This document shows positions 42,678 to 55,389 of a stretch of 64,000 nt of DNA, piece by piece. A model generated the notes under the pieces. The model made no database searches. It was given only the letters and a program-made list of their open reading frames with translations, and had not been told where the DNA came from. The position numbers were made by a program, and so were the translations under genes. The stretch's first letter is position 1. Every line of letters starts with the position of its first letter. The stretch is from Bradyrhizobium roseum (GTDB lineage: Bacteria > Pseudomonadota > Alphaproteobacteria > Rhizobiales > Xanthobacteraceae). The DNA lies in the NCBI RefSeq assembly GCF_030413175.1, contig NZ_CP129212.1:2790001-2854000 (forward strand). The letters run 5' to 3'.

Positions 42678-42777
42678 GGCAGGCCGCGAATGGATGTGAT
42701 CCCGCGAAAATGTGATCGCCCGGACCTGCTTTCGGCAGGGCGAGCCGGGAATTTGCCGCGGCGCGACGAGGCCCTGC

Positions 42778-42793
42778 TGGCATACCGCTTGCA
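42778..42793 (+). promoter_or_regulatory. Sigma-54-like promoter of the Dpp-type operon
   Basis: TGGCATACCGCTTGCA matches TGGCAC-N5-TTGCA with one change at -24 and correct GG-N10-GC spacing, 117 nt upstream of ATG 42910, in otherwise featureless intergenic DNA (42678-42909). Confidence 0.6.
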
Positions 42794-42909
42794 AGAAAAA
42801 TGAACTGATAGGCATCGGTTTGACTGGCCGCTTCACCTCACGCGGCGTCGAACCTTCGGCCATCGAACTGGCCGGAATCGCCGTGACAAACCACGACTGG
42901 GAGAGCTTG

Positions 42910-44514
42910 ATGGATCGCAGGACTGTGTTGAAGGGATTGGCCGGGGTAGGCACCCTGGCGGCGACGGGCGGCTTGTCGATGCCGGCGCTCTCCCAAGGGG
43001 CTGCGGCGCGCACGCTGAAATTCGTACCGCAGGCCAATCTCGCGAATTTCGATCCGATCTGGGGCACCCAATATGTCGTGCGCAACGCGGCGGCGCTGGT
43101 GTGGGATACGCTTTATGGCCTCGACGCCACATTGCAGCCGCAACGACAGATGGTCGAATCGGAACAAGTATCGGATGACGGTCTGGTCTGGACCTTCAAG
43201 CTGAGATCCGGGCTGAAGTTTCATGACGGCACGCCCGTGCTGGCCAAGGACGTGGTCGCGAGCCTGACGCGATGGTCGTCGCGTGACCCGATGGGCCTGA
43301 TGCTCAAGGCGATCCAGAACGAGCTGACCGCCGTCGACGACAAAACCTTCAAATGGGCGCTGAAGGCGCCTTATCCGAAGATGCTGCTGGCGTTGGGCAA
43401 GAACAGCACGCCCTGCGCCTTCATCATGCCGGAGCGCATCGCGCAGACCGATCCGTTCAAGCAGATTCCCGAATATATCGGCTCGGGCCCGATGAAATTC
43501 GCCAAGGGCGAATGGGTGCCCGGCGCCAAGGCGGTGTTCGAGAAATTTGCGGACTACGTGCCGCGGCAGGAAAAATCATCATGGCTTGCCGGCGGCAAGC
43601 AGATGCTGGTCGACCGCATCGAATGGGTGGTGATCCCGGATCCGGCGACGGCCGCGGCAGCCCTTCAGAACGGCGAGGTCGATTGGTGGGAGAGCCCGAT
43701 CACCGATCTGGTGCCGTCGCTCAAGAAGAACAAAAACATTGAGGTCGATATCGCCGACCCGCTCGGCAACATCGGTTCGTTCCGGATGAATCACCTGCAT
43801 CCGCCATTCAACAACGTCAAGGTACGGCGTGCGGTGCTCGCCGCACTGAACCAGGAAGATTACATGCGCGCGCTGGTCGGCGACGATACCGCGCTGTGGA
43901 AGACGCTGCCGGGCTTCTTCACGCCGGGTACGCCGCTGTACACCGAAGAGGGCGGCGAAATACTGAAAGGCAAGCGCGATCTTGCGATGGCCAAGAAGCT
44001 TTTGGCCGAGAGCGGCTATGCGGGCCAGCCGGTGACTTGCGTGGTGGCGCAGGACCAGCCGATCACCAAGGCGCAGGGCGATGTCACCGCCGACTTGCTG
44101 AAGCAGATCGGCATGAATGTCGACTTCGTCGCGACCGACTGGGGCACGGTTGGTTCCCGCCGGGCGCAGAAAACGCCGCCCGGGCAGGGCGGCTGGGGCA
44201 TGTTCCACACTTGGCACGCCGGCGCGGACTGCATCAATCCCGCCGCCTACAACGCCATCCGCGCCAATGGCGACAAGGCGTGGTTCGGCTGGCCCACCAG
44301 CGAGCCCGTGGAAAAGGAAGTGCTGTCGTGGTTCGAGGCCAAGAATCTCGAGGAGGAGAAGACCGCGGTCAAGCGCCTCAACAAGGCGGCGCTCGACGAC
44401 GTGGTCTATGCGCCGACCGGCTTCTTCCTGAGCTATACCGCGTGGCGCAAGAACGTCTCCGGCATCGCGAAGGGGCCGCTGCCGTTCTTCTGGGGCGTGT
44501 CGAAATCCGCATGA
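42910..44514 (+). CDS. Family-5 ABC transporter substrate-binding protein (Dpp-type operon)
   Basis: 534 residues with a twin-arginine-like signal (DRRTVLKGLAGVGTLAATGG). The family-5 pattern is ANLANFDPIWGTQYVVRNAAALVWDTLYG, SGLKFHDGTPVLAKDV, PEYIGSGPMKFAKGEW and RMNHLHPPFNNVKVRRAVLAALNQ. It is related to the binding protein at 38479 but belongs to the operon that also encodes both permeases and both ATPases. The sigma-54-like site at 42778 would make the whole five-gene unit nitrogen-regulated. Confidence 0.92.
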   Translation: MDRRTVLKGLAGVGTLAATGGLSMPALSQGAAARTLKFVPQANLANFDPIWGTQYVVRNAAALVWDTLYGLDATLQPQRQMVESEQVSDDGLVWTFKLRSGLKFHDGTPVLAKDVVASLTRWSSRDPMGLMLKAIQNELTAVDDKTFKWALKAPYPKMLLALGKNSTPCAFIMPERIAQTDPFKQIPEYIGSGPMKFAKGEWVPGAKAVFEKFADYVPRQEKSSWLAGGKQMLVDRIEWVVIPDPATAAAALQNGEVDWWESPITDLVPSLKKNKNIEVDIADPLGNIGSFRMNHLHPPFNNVKVRRAVLAALNQEDYMRALVGDDTALWKTLPGFFTPGTPLYTEEGGEILKGKRDLAMAKKLLAESGYAGQPVTCVVAQDQPITKAQGDVTADLLKQIGMNVDFVATDWGTVGSRRAQKTPPGQGGWGMFHTWHAGADCINPAAYNAIRANGDKAWFGWPTSEPVEKEVLSWFEAKNLEEEKTAVKRLNKAALDDVVYAPTGFFLSYTAWRKNVSGIAKGPLPFFWGVSKSA

Positions 44515-44529
44515 CGGTGCATTGACCCC

Positions 44530-45471
44530 ATGCTCTCGTATATTTTTCGGCGAATTCTCTCGACGCTCCCCGTGATGGGGATCGTCGCGCTGTTCGTGTT
44601 CAGCCTGCTTTACATCGCGCCCGGCGATCCGGCCGCGGTGATCGCCGGCGACCAGGCGAGCCCCGCCGATGTCGAGCGCATTCGGCAGGGCCTCGGGCTC
44701 GACCGGCCGTTTCTGATCCAGTTCGGGTCCTGGGTCTGGAATATCCTGCACGGCGATCTCGGCACCTCGATCTTCACCAACCTGCCGGTCTCGGCGATGA
44801 TCGTGCAGCGGCTTGAGCCGACATTGTCGCTGATGGCGATCACGCTGGTGTTGACCATTCTGGTCGCGGTCCCGCTTGGCGTAGTGGCGGCGTGGAAGGC
44901 GGGAAGCTGGGTCGACCGCAGCATCATGGCGTTCGCCGTGTTCGCTTTCTCGCTGCCCGTTTTCGTGGTCGGCTATGTGCTGGCCTATATCTTTGCGCTG
45001 CAGTTCGAATGGCTGCCGGTGCAGGGCTATACGCCGTTGAAATCAGGCGTATGGCCGTGGCTGCAGAACCTTATTCTGCCCGCGCTCGCGCTCGGCAGCG
45101 TCTATATCGCGCTGATCGCGCGCATTACCCGCGCTTCCATGCTCGAGGTGCTGCAGCAGGACTATGTCCGCACCGCCCGCGCCAAGGGGCTCGGGCAGCG
45201 CGACATCCTGTTCATCCATGCGCTGAAGAACGCCGCGGTGCCGATCGTCACCGTGATCGGCATCGGCATCGCGCTGTTGATCGGCGGCGCGGTGGTGACC
45301 GAAAGCGTGTTCGCGATTCCGGGCCTTGGCCGGCTGACGATCGACGCCATCCTGCGGCGCGATTATCCGGTCATTCAAGGCATCGTGCTGCTGTTCAGCT
45401 TCCTCTACGTGCTCGTCAACCTGATGGTTGACGTCACCTACACCTTGGTCGATCCGAGGATCCGCTATTGA
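44530..45471 (+). CDS. Dpp/Opp-type ABC transporter permease 1 (DppB-like)
   Basis: A 313-residue inner-membrane permease: MLSYIFRRILSTLPVMGIVALFVFSLL at the N-terminus, the GDPAAVIAGDQASPADVERIRQGLGLDRP periplasmic segment, about six membrane helices, and the EAA loop (QDYVRTARAKGLGQRDILFIHALKNAAVPIV). It follows the binding-protein gene by 15 bp and its stop overlaps the TTG start of the next permease. Confidence 0.94.
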   Translation: MLSYIFRRILSTLPVMGIVALFVFSLLYIAPGDPAAVIAGDQASPADVERIRQGLGLDRPFLIQFGSWVWNILHGDLGTSIFTNLPVSAMIVQRLEPTLSLMAITLVLTILVAVPLGVVAAWKAGSWVDRSIMAFAVFAFSLPVFVVGYVLAYIFALQFEWLPVQGYTPLKSGVWPWLQNLILPALALGSVYIALIARITRASMLEVLQQDYVRTARAKGLGQRDILFIHALKNAAVPIVTVIGIGIALLIGGAVVTESVFAIPGLGRLTIDAILRRDYPVIQGIVLLFSFLYVLVNLMVDVTYTLVDPRIRY

Positions 45472-46390
45472 GTATCTCTGCCTCCAGCACGGCGCCGCTG
45501 CCGCCGGGCCTCGTCATCGCGCCGCAACTGCCGGACCTGATGGTGCCGGTGGCGATCCGGCGCGGTGTGCTTGGATTCCTGCGCAATCATCCGACGGTGG
45601 CGATCGGCGGCGCCTTGCTGCTGTGTCTTGTCCTGATCGGGATTTTCGCGCCCTGGCTCGGGACCGTCGACCCGACCACGATATCGCCTGCCAAACGGAC
45701 AAGGTTGCCCTCCGCGGACTACTGGTTCGGCACCGACATCCTCGGCCGCGACGTCTATTCGCGCGTGCTGTACGGGGCGCGGGTCTCGCTCACCGTGGGC
45801 CTCTCGGTGGCCATCCTGGCCTCGCTGGCCGGTCTCGCCATCGGACTGGTGTCGGGGTTTGTGCGATGGGCCGACAGTATTCTGATGCGGTTCATGGACG
45901 GGTTGATGTCGATCCCGCCGATTTTGCTGGCCGTCGCGCTGATGGCGCTGACTCGGGCGAGCGTCGGCAACGTGATTCTCGCGATTACTATCGCCGAAAT
46001 CCCGCGCGTCTCCCGGCTGGTGCGCAGCGTCGTGCTGTCGCTGCGCGAACAGCCGTATGTGGACGCCGCCACGGCCTCCGGCACGCGAACACCGATGGTG
46101 ATCCTGCGCCACATCCTGCCCAACACGCTGGCGCCGATGCTGGTGCAGGCCACCTATATCTGCGCCAGCGCGATGATCGTGGAGTCGATTCTGTCCTTCA
46201 TCGGCGCCGGCACGCCGCCGACCATTCCGTCCTGGGGCAACATCATGGCTGAGGGCAGGGCGCTGTGGCAGGTCAAACCGTATATCGTGTTCTTTCCCGC
46301 CGCGTTCCTCTCCGTCACCGTGCTCGCCGTCAACCTGCTGGGCGACGGCCTGCGCGATGCGCTCGATCCGCGAATGGCGAAGAGTCTCTG

Positions 46391-46391
<1 letters not shown>
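45468..46391 (+). CDS. Dpp/Opp-type ABC transporter permease 2 (DppC-like)
   Basis: A 307-residue permease with the typical N-terminal cytosolic stretch, first helix (VAIGGALLLCLVLIGIFAPWL), FGTDILGRDVYSRVLYGARVSL, and the EAA loop (QPYVDAATASGTRTPMVILRHILPNTLAPM). The start is TTG 45468, overlapping the previous stop as TTGA; no ATG fits better. It forms a heterodimeric channel with permease 1. Confidence 0.92.
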
Positions 46392-47376
<985 letters not shown>

Positions 47377-47380
<4 letters not shown>

Positions 47381-48375
47381 ACGCGCCACTGCTCCAGGTC
47401 AACGACCTCAAGAAGCATTTTCCGGTCTCTGGCGGGCTGTTCAGCCGTCAATCGAAATGGGTCTATGCGGTGGACGGCGTGTCCTTTGAGGTCGCGCGCG
47501 GCGAGACGCTGTCGCTCGTCGGCGAGTCCGGCTGCGGCAAGTCGACGGTCGGCCGGGCCATCCTGCGGCTGTTCGACATCACCTCCGGCCAGGTCGTGCT
47601 GGACGGCCAGCGGATCGACGATCTTTCGCCCGGGAGCTTGCGCAGCATGCGCCGCCGCGTCCAGGTGGTGTTCCAGGATCCGTTTTCCAGCCTCAACCCG
47701 CGCATGCGCGTCCGCGATATTTTGGCCGAGCCGATCCGCAATTTCGGCCTCGCCAAATCTTCCGCCGAACTGGAAAAGAAGGTGGCGGCGCTGATGGACA
47801 CCGTGCGGCTGCCGCGCGACGCGCTGGGCCGCCGGCCGCACGAATTTTCAGGCGGCCAGCGCCAGCGCATCGGCATCGCCCGGGCGCTTGCCGCCGAACC
47901 CGAACTGATCGTCTGCGACGAGGCGGTTTCGGCGCTCGACGTGTCGGTCAAGGCGCAGATCGTCAATCTGCTGCAGGACCTGCAGCGGGAGTTCGGTCTC
48001 GCGCTGCTGTTCATCAGCCACGATCTGGCGATCGTCGAGCACATGACGCACCGTGTGGCGGTGATGTATCTCGGCAAGATCGTCGAGTTGGCGCCCAGGC
48101 GGCAGATCTTTGCGGCGCCGCAGCATCCTTACACCCGCGCGCTGCTGTCAGCCGTGCCGGTGCCGGAGCCCGGCGCGATTCGAAATCCGATCATCCTCAA
48201 GGGCGACGTGCCGAGCCCGATCAGTCCGCCGAGCGGCTGCCGCTTCCACACCCGATGCCCCTACGTGTTCGATCGCTGCCGGACCGAGGAGCCGGAACTG
48301 CGGTCGACCGAAGACGGGCAGTGGGTGGCGTGTCATCTCAAGGCGCTGCCGGAACGGCCAGGACCTTCGCACTGA
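47377..48375 (+). CDS. Dpp/Opp-type ABC transporter ATP-binding protein 2 (DppF-like)
   Basis: A 332-residue ATPase: HFPVSGGLFSRQSKWVYAVDGVSF at the N-terminus, Walker A GESGCGKST, signature FSGGQRQR, Walker B LIVCDEAVSALDV, switch SHDLAIVEHM, and the Cys-rich tail (GCRFHTRCPYVFDRC). The Glu-Ala after the Walker B Asp (DEAVSALD) replaces the more common DEPVSALD, as in many DppF proteins. It closes the transporter operon and converges with upp, 22 bp apart. Confidence 0.94.
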
Positions 48376-48397: not shown

Positions 48398-49027
48398 CTA
48401 CTTCGTGCCGTAGGCGCGATCGCCGGCATCGCCGAGGCCCGGCACGATGTAGCCGTTGTCGTCCAGCCCCTCGTCGATCGCCGCGAGCCAGATCGGAACG
48501 TCGGGGTGAATGCCGCGCGTCCGCTCGATGCCTTCGGGCGCGCCGATCAGGCAGACCAGCCGGATATCGTTCGCACCGCGTTCCTTCAGCCGGTCGATCG
48601 CGGCCACGGCGGAGTTTCCGGTGGCCAGCACCGGCGAGATCACGATCACCAGCCGCTCGTGCAGGTCGCTCGGCGCCTTGAAGAAGTATTCGACGGCGGT
48701 GAACGTCTCCGGCTCACGGTAGAGGCCGATATGGGCGATGCGCGCGGTCGGCACCAGGTCGAGCATGCCTTCCGCAAAGGTGACGCCGGCACGCAGCACC
48801 GGCGCGAATACCAGTTTCTTGCCCGCGATCTGCGACGACTTCATGTGCGCCAGCGGTGTGTCGATTTCGATATCGGCCAGCGGCAGGTCGCGGGTGACCT
48901 CGTAGCAGAGCAGCATTCCGATTTCCTTGAGGAGCTCGCGGAATGATTTTGTCGAAATGTCCTTGTTCCGCAGCAGCGTCAGCTTGTGCTGCACCAGCGG
49001 ATGACTGACGATCGTAACGCCTTCCAT
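48398..49027 (-). CDS. upp: Uracil phosphoribosyltransferase (URC6-type)
   Basis: A 209-residue enzyme forming UMP from uracil and PRPP. The uracil-binding C-terminus is canonical ([19 protein letters not shown]). The PRPP loop reads [10 protein letters not shown] (residues 130-139), with Ser131 where most Upp proteins have Asp (VDPMLATGGS). It is the last gene of urc1-urc4-upp, 15 bp after urc4. In the yeast URC route, URC6 is a uracil phosphoribosyltransferase that feeds the pathway, so a catabolic rather than salvage role is likely here. A GAGG site precedes ATG 49027. Confidence 0.92.
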
Positions 49028-49042
49028 GCTTCTGACCTCGAT

Positions 49043-50275
49043 CTAGAAAACCGTCCCGTCGCTGATGACCTTGATCGGGGGCGACGCATCCGCGCGGCGT
49101 TCGCGGGCCAGCCGCCGGCCCGCGGCCCATGTGCCGCCCTCGAGAATCTTTGCCAGCGGCATCGAGGTGGCATCGCGTCCCAGCCGCTGCCGCACGCCAT
49201 CCGCGACGCGATCGAGCAGCGCCACCGTCAGCGCCCGCCATTCCACGACAAGCGGCGACGATACCTGATGCTCTCGCTCCGCATCGGCCGCGTCGCGACA
49301 CGTCAGCACGCCGGTATCGACGAACAGTCCGCCGTTGCGGTATTCGGCGAGGCCGGTGAGGCCATCGATGTCGGTCACGTCGATCCCGGACCGCTGCAGC
49401 GGTTCGATCAGCGAATAGGCGAGCCATTGCGAGAGCTTGTGCAGCGGTACCAGGCCGCTGGTGGCATCGGCGGTCGTCATCGCCGGATGCCGCCAGCAGT
49501 CGCCGAGTGCGATACCGCCGAGCGTCAGCCGCGACGGCCAGATCGGCCCAAGTTGCTGCAGCAGTTCTGCCAGGATCGTCGGTGCGGGCAGCTTGCCGCC
49601 GTCCGCCCGCATTGCCAGCCGGTCGTACAGGCCGCCGGGCCGCGGGTTGTCATGACTGCCGAAGATGTCCGGCTTCGAGGTCACGAGTTGGCCGAGGCGG
49701 CGCAACAGGTCGGCGCGGCCATCCAGCCCGACCAGCGGATTGTCATCCCTCACCTGCATGCCGCGTGCGAGATCGACGACATCCAAATTCGCCAGCTTGT
49801 CGGCATCGGCCCGCAATGGCTCGGATGACGCGGCCGAGAAGGCGCCGCTTGTGAACATCGCCAGGCTCGCCAGCCCCAATCCTTCCGAGCGACCGATGGC
49901 CAAGCCCGTGGCGGGATCGCGGTAGCGCCACGATGGGCCGGCGCCGGCATCGAGGAACACGCTGACGATGGCGAGATCGAATTCCGCCCTGGCGCGGGCG
50001 GCACGGTCGGGCCAGCCGGCGACGGCCGCCCAGCGGTCGTCGCCATCGATGACGAAGTGCCGCCAGCGCGAATGAAAGGGAACGTCGAACGACGGGTAGG
50101 CGGTGCGCGTCGTTTCCAGCACCAGTTCGACCACATCATCCATGCGGCCGAGATCGATACGAAAACTGGGCAGCCTGTCTTCAAGGCCGATGGCGAGCAT
50201 GCGGTGCGCGCGCTCGCGGACGGCGGCGGCATTCAGCAGCGACACGGCGGCTGAGGTCTCCGGATTGACTGCCAC
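49043..50275 (-). CDS. urc4: URC4/Urg3 family protein, uracil catabolism (DUF1688)
   Basis: A 410-residue protein of the URC4/Urg3 family. The hallmark segment PFHSRWRHFVIDGDDRWAAV is near residue 75, and GLIPLHKLSQWLAYSLIEPL-like and GLTGLAEYRNGGLFVDTGVL segments follow. In the yeast Lachancea kluyveri URC4 is required to use uracil as nitrogen source; its chemistry is not settled. GTG 50275 starts 7 nt after the urc1 stop; no ATG fits as well. It has no signal or membrane segment. Confidence 0.87.
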   Translation of the reverse strand: MAVNPETSAAVSLLNAAAVRERAHRMLAIGLEDRLPSFRIDLGRMDDVVELVLETTRTAYPSFDVPFHSRWRHFVIDGDDRWAAVAGWPDRAARARAEFDLAIVSVFLDAGAGPSWRYRDPATGLAIGRSEGLGLASLAMFTSGAFSAASSEPLRADADKLANLDVVDLARGMQVRDDNPLVGLDGRADLLRRLGQLVTSKPDIFGSHDNPRPGGLYDRLAMRADGGKLPAPTILAELLQQLGPIWPSRLTLGGIALGDCWRHPAMTTADATSGLVPLHKLSQWLAYSLIEPLQRSGIDVTDIDGLTGLAEYRNGGLFVDTGVLTCRDAADAEREHQVSSPLVVEWRALTVALLDRVADGVRQRLGRDATSMPLAKILEGGTWAAGRRLARERRADASPPIKVISDGTVF

Positions 50276-50282
50276 GGCGCGC

Positions 50283-51533
50283 TCAATATTTTTCGAGCGG
50301 GCGGCCGACCGGGTTTTCCGGGTCTTCCTGCGGGTCAGGCGTGTAGTAACCCGCGGCCTTTTTCGCCGCGATCTCCACATGTGCGTCGGCCGGGATCATG
50401 TCGTCGGGGATCGGCACGCGCTCGACGATGTCGATTCCCTGGCCGGTCAGCGCGTCGTGCTTCATGTCGCTCATGGAAATGAAACGGTCGATCCGCTTCA
50501 GGCCGAGCCAATGCACCACATCGGGCATCAGCTGCTGGAAGCGGGCATCCTGCACGCCGGCGACGCATTCGGTGCGCTCGAAATATTGCGCCGCCGCATC
50601 GCCACCTTCCTGGCGCTTGCGGGCGTTATAAACGAGGAATTTCGTGACCTCGCCGAGCGCGCGGCCTTCCTTGCGATTGTAGATGATGATGCCGAGCCCG
50701 CCGCTCTGGCCGGCGCGCGCGCATTCCTCGATACCGTGGATCAGATAGGGGCGGCAGGTGCAGATATCGGACCCGAACACGTCGGAGCCGTTGCATTCGT
50801 CATGCACGCGGCAGGTGATCTTCGTGGAATGATCCGGCAGCTTGCTGACGTCGCCGAACAGATAGGCCGTGGTGCCGCCGATCGGCGGCAGAAACACCTG
50901 CAGGTCGGGCCGGGTCACCAACTCCGGAAACATGCCGGCGGTCTGCTCGAACAGCTGCCGGCGCAGATTATTCTCGGTGGTGGCGAAGCGCGCCGCGAGG
51001 CCGGGCAGGTGCCAGACCGGGTCGATCGCAATCTTGACCACGGAGACGCTGCCATTCTTGTGCACGACCTCGCCATCCTGCTTGAGCCGGCCGGCTTCGA
51101 TCGCGGCCTGCAGCTCGGGCAGATCGAGCCGGGCGCGCGTGATGGCGATGCTCGGACGGATGTCGATACCTTCGGCGATCTCGCTTGCAAAGTTTTCCGC
51201 GGCGAGGTGGCCCCATGGATCGAGCGAGACGATACGCTGCGGCTCGGTCCATTGCGGAAAGGGACCGATCGTTTCGGCCGGGTGGGTGTTGGTGAGGTCC
51301 GGGCGGCGGACGGGATCGAGCGCACCGGAAGAGACGGCCAGCGCGCGATAGACCGAGTAGGAGCCGCCGTGCGTGCCGATGACGTTGCGGTCTCCCGGGC
51401 GCGACACGGTACCGATGACAGGTCCGCGTTCGCGCGCGCTGGCTGCGCCCCAGCTAATGGGAAATTTGAGCTTCGCGCCCGGCGCCGGGTGCGACGTAAT
51501 GCGAATATGATCAATCCGATTGGAACGAGTCAT
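50283..51533 (-). CDS. urc1: URC1-type GTP cyclohydrolase II homologue, uracil catabolism
   Basis: 416 residues. The C-terminal half is a RibA/GTP cyclohydrolase II domain with the zinc cysteines Cys247, Cys258 and Cys260 (VHDECNGSDVFGSDICTC) and the YNRKEGRALG segment (285-294) that holds the catalytic Arg in RibA. The roughly 200-residue N-terminal extension is absent from riboflavin RibA and typical of URC1. By homology to yeast URC1 it acts on a uracil nucleotide rather than GTP, opening the pyrimidine ring. ATG 51533 is preferred over GTG 51539. It is the first gene of the operon. Confidence 0.88.
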   Translation of the reverse strand: MTRSNRIDHIRITSHPAPGAKLKFPISWGAASARERGPVIGTVSRPGDRNVIGTHGGSYSVYRALAVSSGALDPVRRPDLTNTHPAETIGPFPQWTEPQRIVSLDPWGHLAAENFASEIAEGIDIRPSIAITRARLDLPELQAAIEAGRLKQDGEVVHKNGSVSVVKIAIDPVWHLPGLAARFATTENNLRRQLFEQTAGMFPELVTRPDLQVFLPPIGGTTAYLFGDVSKLPDHSTKITCRVHDECNGSDVFGSDICTCRPYLIHGIEECARAGQSGGLGIIIYNRKEGRALGEVTKFLVYNARKRQEGGDAAAQYFERTECVAGVQDARFQQLMPDVVHWLGLKRIDRFISMSDMKHDALTGQGIDIVERVPIPDDMIPADAHVEIAAKKAAGYYTPDPQEDPENPVGRPLEKY

Positions 51534-51557
51534 CGCCACGAACCCTGAAACGGCAAC

Positions 51558-51579
51558 GGCCCGCCTGAATAGACGGGCC
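51558..51579 (-). promoter_or_regulatory. Hairpin in the urc1 leader
   Basis: On the - strand GGCCCGTCT-ATTC-AGGCGGGCC folds into a 9-bp stem (one G-U pair) ending about 25 nt before the urc1 ATG and about 40 nt after the predicted start of transcription. It could act as an attenuator, stabiliser or protein site. Confidence 0.45.
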
Positions 51580-51624: not shown

Positions 51625-51652
51625 AGTATAATCATTTTTCGGCGGAATTCAA
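51625..51652 (-). promoter_or_regulatory. Sigma-70-type promoter of urc1-urc4-upp
   Basis: On the - strand TTGAAT (51647-51652) and TATACT (51625-51630) are separated by 16 bp, giving a start near 51618, about 85 nt upstream of urc1. Confidence 0.6.
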
Positions 51653-52060
51653 CGCCCTCGATCCGGCGACCGTTAGGTGGGCGTTAACGCTTTGGGCGCG
51701 GACACGTACCCTGCAGATGCTCGCTGCGCTGCGGTCGTCGACCGAAAACAAGATATGGAATCCTCGCCGGCGTCCTGCTTGAAGCGCTCGATCGCGTGCC
51801 GATTGCGTGACCGGCACCACGGCTTGCGGGCTCATTCAAGATGCAATCGTCGCAAGACCAGAACGGACGACGGCGGGTTGCGAGCGATCGGGACGCAGGA
51901 CTGAAGTGCAGTGCACGAGGCGTTTCCTGAATTGACTCGGCACAAACCAAAACTTTAACTGCGGCTCACGCCGCTTGAACCAGATCGGACTCCGGGCTCC
52001 GAAAACTGCTTCATTTGCATGCAAACGCTGCCCGATATGGCAGCATTCAGGAAGTTATTT
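51653..52060. other. Divergent intergenic region upstream of carbamoylase gene
   Basis: About 410 bp between the urc promoter and the carbamoylase start. Frames on both strands lack recognisable features and ribosome-binding sites. No sigma-54 site with correct spacing is present here. Confidence 0.5.
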
Positions 52061-52993
52061 ATGCGCGTCATCAACGTAGCCGCCGCCCAGCTGGGCCCGA
52101 TCCAGAAAGCCGAGAGCCGTGAGGCCGTCGTCAAGCGCATGATCGCGCTGATGGATGAAGCGAAGGCAAAGGGCGCCGACCTGATCGTCTATCCCGAGCT
52201 CGCGCTCACCACGTTCTTTCCGCGCTGGTACATGGAGGATCAGGCCGAAGTCGATACCTGGTTCGAACGCGAGATGCCGAATGCGGCGACAAGACCGTTG
52301 TTCGAACGCGCCGCGCAGCATCAGATCGCGATGAATTTCGGCTATGCCGAGCTGACGCCGGACGGACATCATTTCAACACCTGCATCCTCACCGACAAGT
52401 CCGCAAAGATCGTCGGCAAGTACCGCAAGGTTCATCTGCCCGGCCACGCCGAGTTCGATACCAAGCGCGCGTTCCAGCATCTGGAGAAGCGCTACTTCGA
52501 ACCGGGCGATCTCGGCTTCAAGGTCTGGCGCGCGCTCGGCGGTATTTTCGGCATGGCCGTCTGCAACGACCGGCGTTGGCCGGAGACTTATCGCGTGATG
52601 GGCCTGCAAGGCGTCGAGATGGTCTTGATCGGCTACAACACGCCATCGATCAATGCCGAGAAGACCGAGGAGGGGGCGGAAAAGCGGCTGTTTCATAACC
52701 GGCTTTCCGCACAGGCCGGCGCCTATCAGAACTCGACCTGGGTCGTCAGCGTTGCGAAGGCCGGCGTTGAGGACGGACATCCCCTGATCGGCGGCAGCCT
52801 GATCGTCGATCCCGATGGTGAGATCGTCGTCGAGGCCAGGACGGAGGAGGACGAGCTTCTCGTCCACCCCTGCGATCTCGATGCCACGACGTTCGGCAAG
52901 GAGACGATCTTCAATTTCGCGCTCCATCGCCGCATCGAGCATTACGGCCTGATCGCCAACCAGACAGGCGTCGTGCTGCCGCCGGAGAACTAG
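52061..52993 (+). CDS. N-carbamoyl-D-amino acid hydrolase-like nitrilase-superfamily enzyme
   Basis: 310 residues with the catalytic triad Glu46 (YPELALT), Lys123 (KYRKVHLPGH) and Cys168 (MAVCNDRRWPE). Length and motifs fit D-carbamoylases, which hydrolyse N-carbamoyl amino acids made by hydantoinase; a ureidopropionase-like role is the alternative. AGGAAG ends 6 nt before ATG 52061, which is preferred to an upstream ATG at 52019. A racemase-like gene (convergent) and a hydantoinase gene lie just downstream, completing a hydantoin set. Paralogue of the gene at 33305. Confidence 0.87.
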   Translation: MRVINVAAAQLGPIQKAESREAVVKRMIALMDEAKAKGADLIVYPELALTTFFPRWYMEDQAEVDTWFEREMPNAATRPLFERAAQHQIAMNFGYAELTPDGHHFNTCILTDKSAKIVGKYRKVHLPGHAEFDTKRAFQHLEKRYFEPGDLGFKVWRALGGIFGMAVCNDRRWPETYRVMGLQGVEMVLIGYNTPSINAEKTEEGAEKRLFHNRLSAQAGAYQNSTWVVSVAKAGVEDGHPLIGGSLIVDPDGEIVVEARTEEDELLVHPCDLDATTFGKETIFNFALHRRIEHYGLIANQTGVVLPPEN

Positions 52994-53010
52994 ATGTCCC
53001 GCGCTGCTTG

Positions 53011-53099
53011 GAGCGTTTTCGAGCGAAAGCCTGCCCCGGACTTGATCCGGGGTGGATACCGGTTCGCGTGAAGAAAACGCGTCAAGATAAAAATCTAGT
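53011..53099. repeat. Dispersed repeat, copy B, with nested palindrome
   Basis: An inverted-orientation relative of 27424-27530 (AGCGTTTTCGAGCGAA ... GGTTCGCGTGAAGAAAACGCGTCAAGA). It carries an extra perfect palindrome CCCCGGA-CTTGA-TCCGGGG (53034-53052) missing from copy A. Its end includes the stop codon of the racemase gene (53095-53097). Confidence 0.75.
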
Positions 53100-53757
53100 G
53101 ATGTCCGAACTGCACCGTGCCGAACGCCATGGTCACGGCCGCCTGGGTCGGGTCGATCACGGGAATGCCGAGCGCTTGTTCCAGCTGATGGCGGTGACGC
53201 GCCATGCCGGCGCAGCCCATCACTATGGCGCCGGACCCGTCCTCGTCCTTGAGAGCGCGCCCGACCTCGATCATCTTCGCCAGCGTTCCTTCGCCCGATG
53301 CAGTTTCAGCCACGCTCATGTTGAGCGGCCGCTCATTGGTCAGGCGATCCGTCAGGCCCATCTGCCGGAGATAGCGGACGTGACGGCGGATCGAGCGCTG
53401 CGCGATCGCAATCACGCCAAAGGTCTCGGCGCGCGCCAGCGCCGTCAGCACGCCACATTCGGCGATGCCGAATACCGGCCGGTCAGTGGCTTCGCGGCAG
53501 ACATGCAGGCCCGGATCGCTGTAGCAGGCAATCACGAAAGCGGCCGACTGGTTGTCGCCCTCGACGAGGCGGCGCAGCGGCATCGCCACGCCATCGACGT
53601 CGGCCTGGCTCTCGATTCCGAAAGGACCTTCCGCCAGCGTCTCGCAAACGATCTCCGGTCCGCCGTCGAAGTCGAGCGGCTTCAGGGCCTGCTCCAGCCC
53701 TTGGGTAACGAGATGGTTGGAGTTGGGATTGATGACGAGGATGCGCGGTCGTGACAT
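53095..53757 (-). CDS. Asp/Glu/hydantoin racemase family protein
   Basis: 220 residues. The two catalytic cysteines are Cys78 (IACYSDPGL) and Cys182 (VMGCAGMA), and the N-terminus ILVINPNSN is typical of hydantoin racemases. It would interconvert D- and L-5-monosubstituted hydantoins so that a D-specific hydantoinase can use both. Allantoin racemase is the alternative. AGGA precedes ATG 53757. It is transcribed opposite to the carbamoylase and divergently from the hydantoinase. Its stop codon lies in a dispersed repeat. Confidence 0.83.
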   Translation of the reverse strand: MSRPRILVINPNSNHLVTQGLEQALKPLDFDGGPEIVCETLAEGPFGIESQADVDGVAMPLRRLVEGDNQSAAFVIACYSDPGLHVCREATDRPVFGIAECGVLTALARAETFGVIAIAQRSIRRHVRYLRQMGLTDRLTNERPLNMSVAETASGEGTLAKMIEVGRALKDEDGSGAIVMGCAGMARHRHQLEQALGIPVIDPTQAAVTMAFGTVQFGHH

Positions 53758-53848
53758 GGTGTGTTCCTGCGGGGCGACGCGACGGATGATACAGCAAGAG
53801 CGTCGCGCAACAAGGCGACAAAGAAGGCAATGCACCACGAGCGGGGGA

Positions 53849-53864
53849 CGGCACGATCTGTGCT
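53849..53864 (+). promoter_or_regulatory. Sigma-54-like promoter of the hydantoinase operon
   Basis: CGGCACGATCTGTGCT has GG-N10-GC spacing, a full GGCACG -24 box and GTGCT in place of TTGCT at -12, 56 nt before ATG 53920. Confidence 0.5.
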
Positions 53865-53919
53865 TTCATCCGGCCAGCGCAGGATCTAAGAGTTTAGAAT
53901 TGATACCGGAGAGTTTGCC

Positions 53920-55389
53920 ATGACCGAGCCCGTCTACGACCTTGTCATCCGCGGCGGACGTGTCGCGACCGTGAGCGACGTGTTCGAGGCCGATGTCGCC
54001 ATATCGGGCGAGACGATCGTGGCCGTCGGCCGCGGGCTGCCGGGCGCGCGGCGCGAGATCGACGCGCGGGGCAAGCTGGTTCTGCCCGGCGGCGTCGACA
54101 GCCATGCCCATATCGAACAGCTCTCGGCCGCAGGCATCGTGAACGCCGATACGTTCGAGAGCGCCACCGTCTCGGCCGCTTTCGGCGGCACCACCACGGT
54201 GATCCCGTTTGCGGCCCAGCATGTCGGCATGAAGCTGCCGCAGGTGCTGGAGGAGTATCATGCGCTCGCAAAAAAGGGCGCGGTGATCGATTACGCCTTC
54301 CACATGATCATTGCCGATCCGACCAAGGAGACGCTGGAAAAAGATCTGCCTGAGCTGATCAAGCAGGGCCACGGTTCGATCAAGATATTCATGACCTATG
54401 ATCGTCTGAAGATCGACGACGAACCGCTGCTCGACATTCTGCTTGCCGCGCGCGACGGCGGTGCGATGCTCTGTGCCCACGCCGAAAATCACGGCATCAT
54501 CGCCTGGATGGTGAAGCGGCTGTTGGCGCGCGGCTACACCGCGCCAAAGTATCACGCCGTCAGCCATGCCCGCTTCTCCGAGGCCGAGGCGTTCAACCGG
54601 CTGATCGGCATGGCCGCGCTGATCGACCAGCCGATCATGATTTTTCACGTCTCGACCGCCGAAGGCGCCAAGGTGATCCGCGACGCGCGCGGGCAGGGGC
54701 TGAAAGTGTTTGCGGAAACCTGCCCGCAATATCTGTTCCTCACCGCCGCCGATCTCGACAAACCGGGAAATGAAGGCGCCAAATGGATGTGCAGCCCGCC
54801 GCCGCGCACCACCGCCGATCAGGAAGCGCTGTGGCAGGCGCTGGCGCTCGGCGATCTGCAGACCGTTTCGTCCGATCATGCGCCGTACCGGTTTGACGAG
54901 ACCGGCAAGCTGCGTGCCGGCCCCAATCCGAATTTCAAGCAGGTGGCGAACGGTCTGCCGGGCCTTGAGGTCCGCCTGCCGTTGCTGTTCGACGCCATGG
55001 TATCGAAGGGCCGATTGGGTCTCGAAAAATTCGTCGAACTGACCGCGACCGCGCCGGCCAAGATCTACAACCTGCATCCGCGCAAGGGCTCGATTGCGGT
55101 CGGCGCGGATGCCGATATCGCGATCTGGGACCCGGCGCGCGAGGTCACGCTGAGCGACGCGATGATGCATGACCTGACGGGCTACACGCCGTTTGCCGGG
55201 CGCAAACTGCAGGGTTGGCCGACGACCGTGCTGTCGCGCGGGCGCGTCATCGTGGCGGACGGCAAGCGTTCGGTCGAGGCAGGCACGGGCCGCTTCCTGC
55301 CGCGCAGCGGCGGCGAGGCGGCGAAGCCGACCGGGCGGCTGGTGCCGGACATGAACCCCGAGCAGAACTTTGGCGCGACTCTGCTGTGA
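53920..55389 (+). CDS. D-hydantoinase/dihydropyrimidinase
   Basis: A 489-residue cyclic amidohydrolase that opens hydantoin or dihydropyrimidine rings to N-carbamoyl acids. Zinc ligands His62 and His64 lie in DSHAHIEQ, the carboxylated Lys155 in SIKIFMTYD, and further ligands in CAHAEN, IFHVST and SSDHAPY. Length and the C-terminal extension (GRLVPDMNPEQNFGATLL) are normal for the family. It leads hydantoinase-epimerase-SDR-monooxygenase on the + strand and probably acts with the carbamoylase at 52061 and the racemase at 53095. Confidence 0.92.
   Translation: MTEPVYDLVIRGGRVATVSDVFEADVAISGETIVAVGRGLPGARREIDARGKLVLPGGVDSHAHIEQLSAAGIVNADTFESATVSAAFGGTTTVIPFAAQHVGMKLPQVLEEYHALAKKGAVIDYAFHMIIADPTKETLEKDLPELIKQGHGSIKIFMTYDRLKIDDEPLLDILLAARDGGAMLCAHAENHGIIAWMVKRLLARGYTAPKYHAVSHARFSEAEAFNRLIGMAALIDQPIMIFHVSTAEGAKVIRDARGQGLKVFAETCPQYLFLTAADLDKPGNEGAKWMCSPPPRTTADQEALWQALALGDLQTVSSDHAPYRFDETGKLRAGPNPNFKQVANGLPGLEVRLPLLFDAMVSKGRLGLEKFVELTATAPAKIYNLHPRKGSIAVGADADIAIWDPAREVTLSDAMMHDLTGYTPFAGRKLQGWPTTVLSRGRVIVADGKRSVEAGTGRFLPRSGGEAAKPTGRLVPDMNPEQNFGATLL

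Follow-up and report, generated by a model that had tools for sequence, protein, structure and literature searches.

The 64,000-nucleotide (nt) window analysed here (positions 2,790,001-2,854,000 of the single-contig 7.32 Mb genome of Bradyrhizobium roseum, whose nearest named relatives in these searches were Bradyrhizobium; all coordinates below are window positions) contains a compact uracil catabolism (URC) type operon of three consecutive minus-strand genes, urc1, urc4 and upp, separated by gaps of 7 and 15 nt. The first gene, urc1 (50283-51533, ATG start), encodes a UTP cyclohydrolase-type protein with an N-terminal GTP_CH_N domain followed by a RibA-like C-terminal domain; an alternative GTG start lies at 51539, the ATG at 51533 being six bases inside the longer GTG-started frame. 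It is followed by urc4 (49043-50275, GTG start), encoding a DUF1688 protein of the URC4/urg3 family and predicted 5-phosphoribosylurea N-glycosidase, and by upp (48398-49027, ATG start), encoding a uracil phosphoribosyltransferase (UPRTase). The coordinates, gaps and families given in the original prediction, made from the sequence alone, were thus reproduced.

Each of the three genes has a decisive family match, far beyond chance. Urc1 matched NF005536 with 743.9 bits (cut-off 403) and GTP_CH_N (PF12471) with an E-value of 1.3e-78, two models which we take to cover yeast URC1 as well. Urc4 matched DUF1688 (PF07958) with 479 bits (cut-off 25, E 1.4e-143), and Upp matched NF001097 (277.5 bits), TIGR01091 (259.2 bits, cut-off 208.35) and the UPRTase family PF14681 (E 1.1e-70). 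The operon is not of a new kind, since current annotation and the literature on yeast both name it; what is new here is the fold and active-site assignment of Urc4 and a leader dyad specific to urc1.

Structural relatives of Urc1 and Urc4

The closest solved chains to Urc1 in a PDB sequence search were 7ej3 and 7eev (E about 1e-176, residues 4 to 408), with 63-64% identity over approximately 390 residues. These entries are titled 'UTP cyclohydrolase' and 'Structure of UTP cyclohydrolase', with GTP cyclohydrolase II as the depositors' molecule name. The same chains were recovered by Foldseek (E 3.9e-49) from a model with a predicted local distance difference test (pLDDT) score of 75.2; since the quality of this model is middling, the family assignment rests on sequence, and the activity of Urc1 is predicted from this close full-length likeness in sequence and fold. 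Because its closest solved relatives carry these titles, Urc1 probably opens the ring at UTP rather than at UMP. The earlier proposal that uracil is activated to UMP and then ring-opened therefore holds for UMP formation by Upp, while the ring opening is moved to UTP. Its remark that the enzymology is only partly known has likewise been overtaken by these solved relatives, and one part of PMC12507026 cites for the URC pathway an ACS Catal paper of 2021 whose subject is UTP cyclohydrolase.

For Urc4, the AlphaFold2 model is of high confidence (pLDDT 94.9) and has the same overall fold as the chains of the queuosine-5'-monophosphate N-glycosidase Qng1/DUF2419 (7u07, 7u1o, 7u5a, 7u91, 7ulc, 7uk3 and 7ugk), at 14-19% identity. 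The proteins that clearly resemble Urc4 in structure are N-glycosidases acting on nucleotides or DNA. Set against the Qng1 active-site residues K199, D231, D298 and W302, Urc4 has a lysine (K280) and, by spacing, a tryptophan (W383), with glutamates in place of the aspartates at E311 and, by spacing, at E379. In an alignment of 83 members, K280, E311 and W383 are present in 83/83 and E379 in 78/83. Fold and motifs suggest that Urc4 is an N-glycosidase relative of Qng1; it shares the Qng1 fold and may work like Qng1, yet by cut-off it is not a member of the Q_salvage family (PF10343). It also differs from Qng1 in its gene neighbours and in its predicted substrate, phosphoribosylurea. The original prediction had assigned no activity to Urc4; its family assignment stands, and fold and motifs now point to a Qng1-like N-glycosidase.

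The Pfam label for DUF1688 is a family of unknown function, and no earlier assignment of the Urc4 fold or active site was found in the open literature searched. A role for the Urc4 step had been proposed before; the link to Qng1 would supply a chemical mechanism, named residues and an assayable substrate. The gain from placing Urc4, by its model, among proteins of the Qng1-type N-glycosidase fold and from naming its residues is that an open step may become testable.

Proposed route, gene linkage and alternatives

From the genes, their families, their linkage and the predicted fold, we consider it likely that the operon is a bacterial unit of URC uracil catabolism. Upp, by the established activity of its family, would join uracil and phosphoribosyl pyrophosphate (PRPP) into UMP, which housekeeping kinases would then convert to UTP. 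Urc1, as a RibA-fold cyclohydrolase, would hydrolyse UTP, opening the ring, releasing a C3 part and leaving N-(5-phosphoribosyl)urea as the presumed products. Urc4, as a Qng1-like nucleotide N-glycosidase, would cut the ribose-N bond to give urea and ribose-5-phosphate, as its fold and active-site correspondence suggest, and urease, encoded elsewhere, would convert urea to ammonia. The net outcome would be the use of uracil as a nitrogen source, paid for in PRPP and ATP. We infer all of these activities in this organism, and likewise that phosphoribosylurea is the intermediate and what becomes of the C3 part.

The URC pathway of the yeast Lachancea kluyveri reportedly comprises URC1, URC4 and URC6, in work ascribed to Andersen (2008) and Rasmussen (2014). 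Homologues of URC1, URC4 and the UPRTase URC6 were all recovered here by their family tests, in this case as one compact three-gene operon. In the portions of the literature consulted, URC is named as a uracil breakdown route in addition to the reductive, oxidative and Rut ones (PMC12507026), and the conservation of URC1 and URC4 across many bacteria and fungi has already been published (PMC3869809). A passage of PMC7530994 has yeast URC4 converting ribosylurea to urea, with which the freeing of urea by Urc4 here would agree, and 3-hydroxypropionate is reported in passages of PMC7530994 and PMC3869809 as the fate of the C3 part in yeast. The fate of urea differs: urease is encoded elsewhere in the present genome, whereas urea amidolyase is given for yeast in a passage of PMC7530994.

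We infer uracil degradation by the operon in this bacterium, and this is helped by what its genome encodes. Urease alpha is present (TIGR01792, 961.2 bits, cut-off 680). No match above cut-off was found in this genome for RutA (best 71.1 versus 498.3 bits) or for NF006183, corresponding to PRK08318 and presumably PreA (best 37.5 versus 335 bits); these searches did not extend to uracil dehydrogenase. The genome gave a single full-length PF14681 match, the operon Upp, so that no second full-length UPRTase was found.

Several points weigh against this reading. The predicted structure of Urc1 is middling to weak. The single Upp must also serve salvage, and hence is by itself no proof of catabolism. 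The search for a barbiturase-type protein (PF09663) gave no match but no control match either, and is thus uninformative. In Urc4, D231 of Qng1 is replaced by Glu (E311), E379 is Gln in 5/83 members, and the correspondence to D298 and W302 was set by spacing, not by a residue-level structural alignment. Urc4 scores below the Q_salvage cut-off (15.2 versus 25 bits); two members matched the unrelated CATRA-N in that scan at a slightly better E-value (3.8e-4), so that E-values of such size are not decisive. An hhalign comparison of two sequences gave low probabilities (1.6% local, E 0.031; 9.5% global, E 8.6e-4), and no Qng1 chain was among the matches listed in PDB sequence searches with Urc4 (in one, the best 60 of 113). 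DARPin and kinase rows from the PDB sequence searches with Urc4, its profile and its C-terminal part were judged to reflect chance or composition. A search for Q_salvage in 299 phylum genomes gave no match, and no control match either, and is uninformative.

Since the activities of Urc1 and Urc4 are predictions, the ring might instead be opened at a uridine compound other than UTP, such as UMP, or the action of Urc4 might be non-glycosidic, for example as a ureido-chain hydrolase or a scaffold. The Asp to Glu change at Qng1 position 231 and a Urc4-Qng1 homology that is clear by fold only would suit such a reading. We nevertheless consider it unlikely, because the clear matches to Urc4 by structure are N-glycosidases, the active-site positions are near-invariant, URC4 is placed at the step from ribosylurea to urea in the cited passage of PMC7530994, and the structures closest to Urc1 are titled UTP cyclohydrolase.

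The URC reading also draws on gene linkage. DUF1688 was found in 18/299 genomes sampled across the phylum, in 33/60 relatives and in 28/36 genomes of the same genus, each count including the window's own genome. In loci from 36 of the 49 distinct DUF1688-bearing genomes (L003-L038, L010 being the window's own genome), urc1 adjoins urc4 in 36/36 and upp is present in 33/36, with roughly 1.5 kb examined; nearby upp is missing at L007, which lies at a contig end, and at L004 and L011, which do not. A scan of named genomes gave at least 588 confirmed loci, 80 of which were kept (37 of them titled Bradyrhizobium). All three genes are present in 75 of these; of the other five, three are without urc1, one breaks off shortly after urc4 and one is without both urc1 and upp. 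In the four without a nearby urc1 the gene is found elsewhere in the genome (69-71% identity), and urc1 and urc4 co-occur in 80/80 named genomes examined. Among plasmids, 13 records carry urc4; in the four regions opened, the annotated ones from Gordonia (Actinomycetota), Azospirillum and Pseudoroseomonas have identical gene order, and an unannotated Cupriavidus region encodes all three proteins in the same order. In viral contigs, 13 stretches matched the Urc4 pattern and none was confirmed as a relative.

Neighbouring genes in other genera include phosphopentomutase (10/80 named loci) and thymidine phosphorylase (8/80), which together with the genome setting fit pyrimidine catabolism. A BMP-family ATP-binding cassette (ABC) transporter lies near the urc genes on the Azospirillum plasmid. 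In Prosthecomicrobium (L118, 4567-13410), the urc genes were seen by eye near ribokinase-like and nucleoside phosphorylase-like open reading frames (ORFs); also near are members of two clusters that were named on L100 and L117, phosphopentomutase and thymidine phosphorylase, and upp lies upstream on the opposite strand. In two Enterovirga genomes in which urc1 is apart from urc4, an inorganic pyrophosphatase-like ORF was seen by eye near urc1 (L145, 218-787; L146, 3458-4027); opening of the UTP ring is expected to release pyrophosphate.

Urc1 would destroy UTP from within one unit with the genome's only full-length uracil salvage enzyme found, and such an enzyme would drain a central pool. It could thus be argued that the unit serves mainly to salvage pyrimidines or to control the UTP pool, or that it is a defence which depletes nucleotides, and that nitrogen scavenging is not its role. 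This is, however, quite improbable: a second full-length UPRTase is retained in 20/28 urc4-bearing genus genomes, urease is present, and the phosphopentomutase and thymidine phosphorylase neighbours and the Azospirillum transporter speak for catabolism. Anti-phage defence in particular was rejected, since no PADLOC family matched Urc1, Urc4 or Upp at E ⩽ 0.01. At least one full-length UPRTase was found in 28/28 genus genomes with urc4 and two in the 20 just given, versus 1/8 of those without urc4, several of these genomes being drafts. In seven urc4-bearing genus genomes (the window's own, G299, G310, G317, G321, G325 and G332, some of them drafts), no full-length UPRTase was found other than the neighbour of urc4, so that in these uracil salvage and destruction would share one enzyme.

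Urc1 and riboflavin RibA (GTP cyclohydrolase II) share the fold of the C-terminal domain as well as three conserved cysteines. Cys249, Cys260 and Cys262 (C249-x10-C260-x-C262) are present in 36/36 aligned Urc1 sequences and align with cysteines of E. coli GTP cyclohydrolase II; the corresponding three cysteines bind zinc in RibA. Urc1 differs in carrying the GTP_CH_N domain in front, and it falls below the RibA cut-offs (TIGR00505, 49 versus 205.85 bits; NF001591, 58.6 versus 148 bits). A separate RibA is encoded elsewhere in the genome (L002, 379 amino acids), scoring 227.5 bits on NF001591, above the cut-off, and 200.5 bits on TIGR00505, slightly below. The phylogeny of the URC1 homologue against RibA, proposed as a check together with the original assignment, splits the two groups: in the tree, which covers the domain they share, the separating branch measures 2.07 substitutions per site and has a support of 1.000. 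This tree was built from 12 Urc1 (10 of the 36 aligned plus 2 from plasmid records) and 4 RibA (the window genome's own and three accepted as RibA at 41-50% identity to it). The original view of a RibA-like URC1 protein distinct from riboflavin RibA is therefore supported by hidden Markov model scores, by the separate RibA and by the tree. Although NF005536 and the plasmid annotations name Urc1 GTP cyclohydrolase II, these three lines, the titles of the closest structures and the tight linkage to urc4 and upp rule out a riboflavin RibA and leave hardly any room for a second GTP cyclohydrolase II in a mixed biosynthesis and salvage operon.

Leader dyad, promoter-like site and flanking genes

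With a UTP-destroying enzyme alongside the only full-length salvage UPRTase found, control of the operon would have to be tight, and a dyad in the urc1 leader offers a concrete candidate site. The dyad, GGCCCGTC-TATTCA-GGCGGGCC (51558-51579, minus strand), lies 24 nt upstream of the urc1 ATG and is a candidate operator or RNA hairpin. Its general form is GGCCCGYC-N-GGCGGGCC. A symmetric version of this pattern is found within 120 nt upstream of urc1 in 47/76 named loci with urc1 (26 of the 47 with identical sequence), and is missing from 29/76, Microvirga and Bosea loci included. Since the pattern was derived from these very leaders, this count is not independent; the control is the 1.22 Mb of the same 76 loci, in which 0 sites occur elsewhere. 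One further site, palindromic, is present in the window's own genome. The arms differ only at T/C and the loop differs as well, a pattern that would fit a protein operator no less than an RNA hairpin. No Rfam family matched the urc1 leader at E ⩽ 1, and its RNA folding is unexceptional (z -1.56; 14/200 shuffles fold at least as well). A first scan for any upstream hairpin was dropped as too loose (57/76, control 542/1520) in favour of the specific dyad.

Taken together, we lean moderately towards one joint claim: that Urc4 (DUF1688) would form a second branch, also cutting nucleotides, among the helix-hairpin-helix N-glycosidases of Qng1 type, where as an N-glycosidase of 5-phosphoribosylurea with Lys280, Glu311, Glu379 and Trp383 in its active site it would complete the URC pathway in bacteria and fungi alike and recycle ribose-5-phosphate, and that the operon of the Bradyrhizobium group would be set by a urc1-specific leader dyad guarding the UTP pool.

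A promoter-like site, TTGAAT-16-TATACT (51625-51652, minus strand), was found upstream of urc1 in a consensus scan with 9/12 matches; 2 such sites occur in the 3.85 kb scanned versus a shuffle mean of 0.7. TATACT is kept in 3/6 aligned relatives (L039, L040 and L043), and the first hexamer is not kept. The operon's own promoter, as originally proposed, thus has a candidate site upstream of urc1, which makes promoter function plausible.

Next to urc1, a carbon-nitrogen hydrolase, an Asp/Glu/hydantoin racemase and a dihydropyrimidinase (52019-55389) probably serve hydantoin use. The hydrolase and racemase clusters occur near urc in 5/80 named loci (L039, L042, L043, L047 and L060), and an amidohydrolase cluster in 9/80. 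A part for this hydantoinase cluster in uracil breakdown is unsupported, because the search gave no PreA above cut-off to feed it. On the other side, a peptide/nickel-type ABC transporter (42712-48375) is convergent with the urc operon; it consists of a binding protein, two permeases and an ATPase (family-scored) plus a second ATPase ORF, and its substrate could be hydantoin or peptide.
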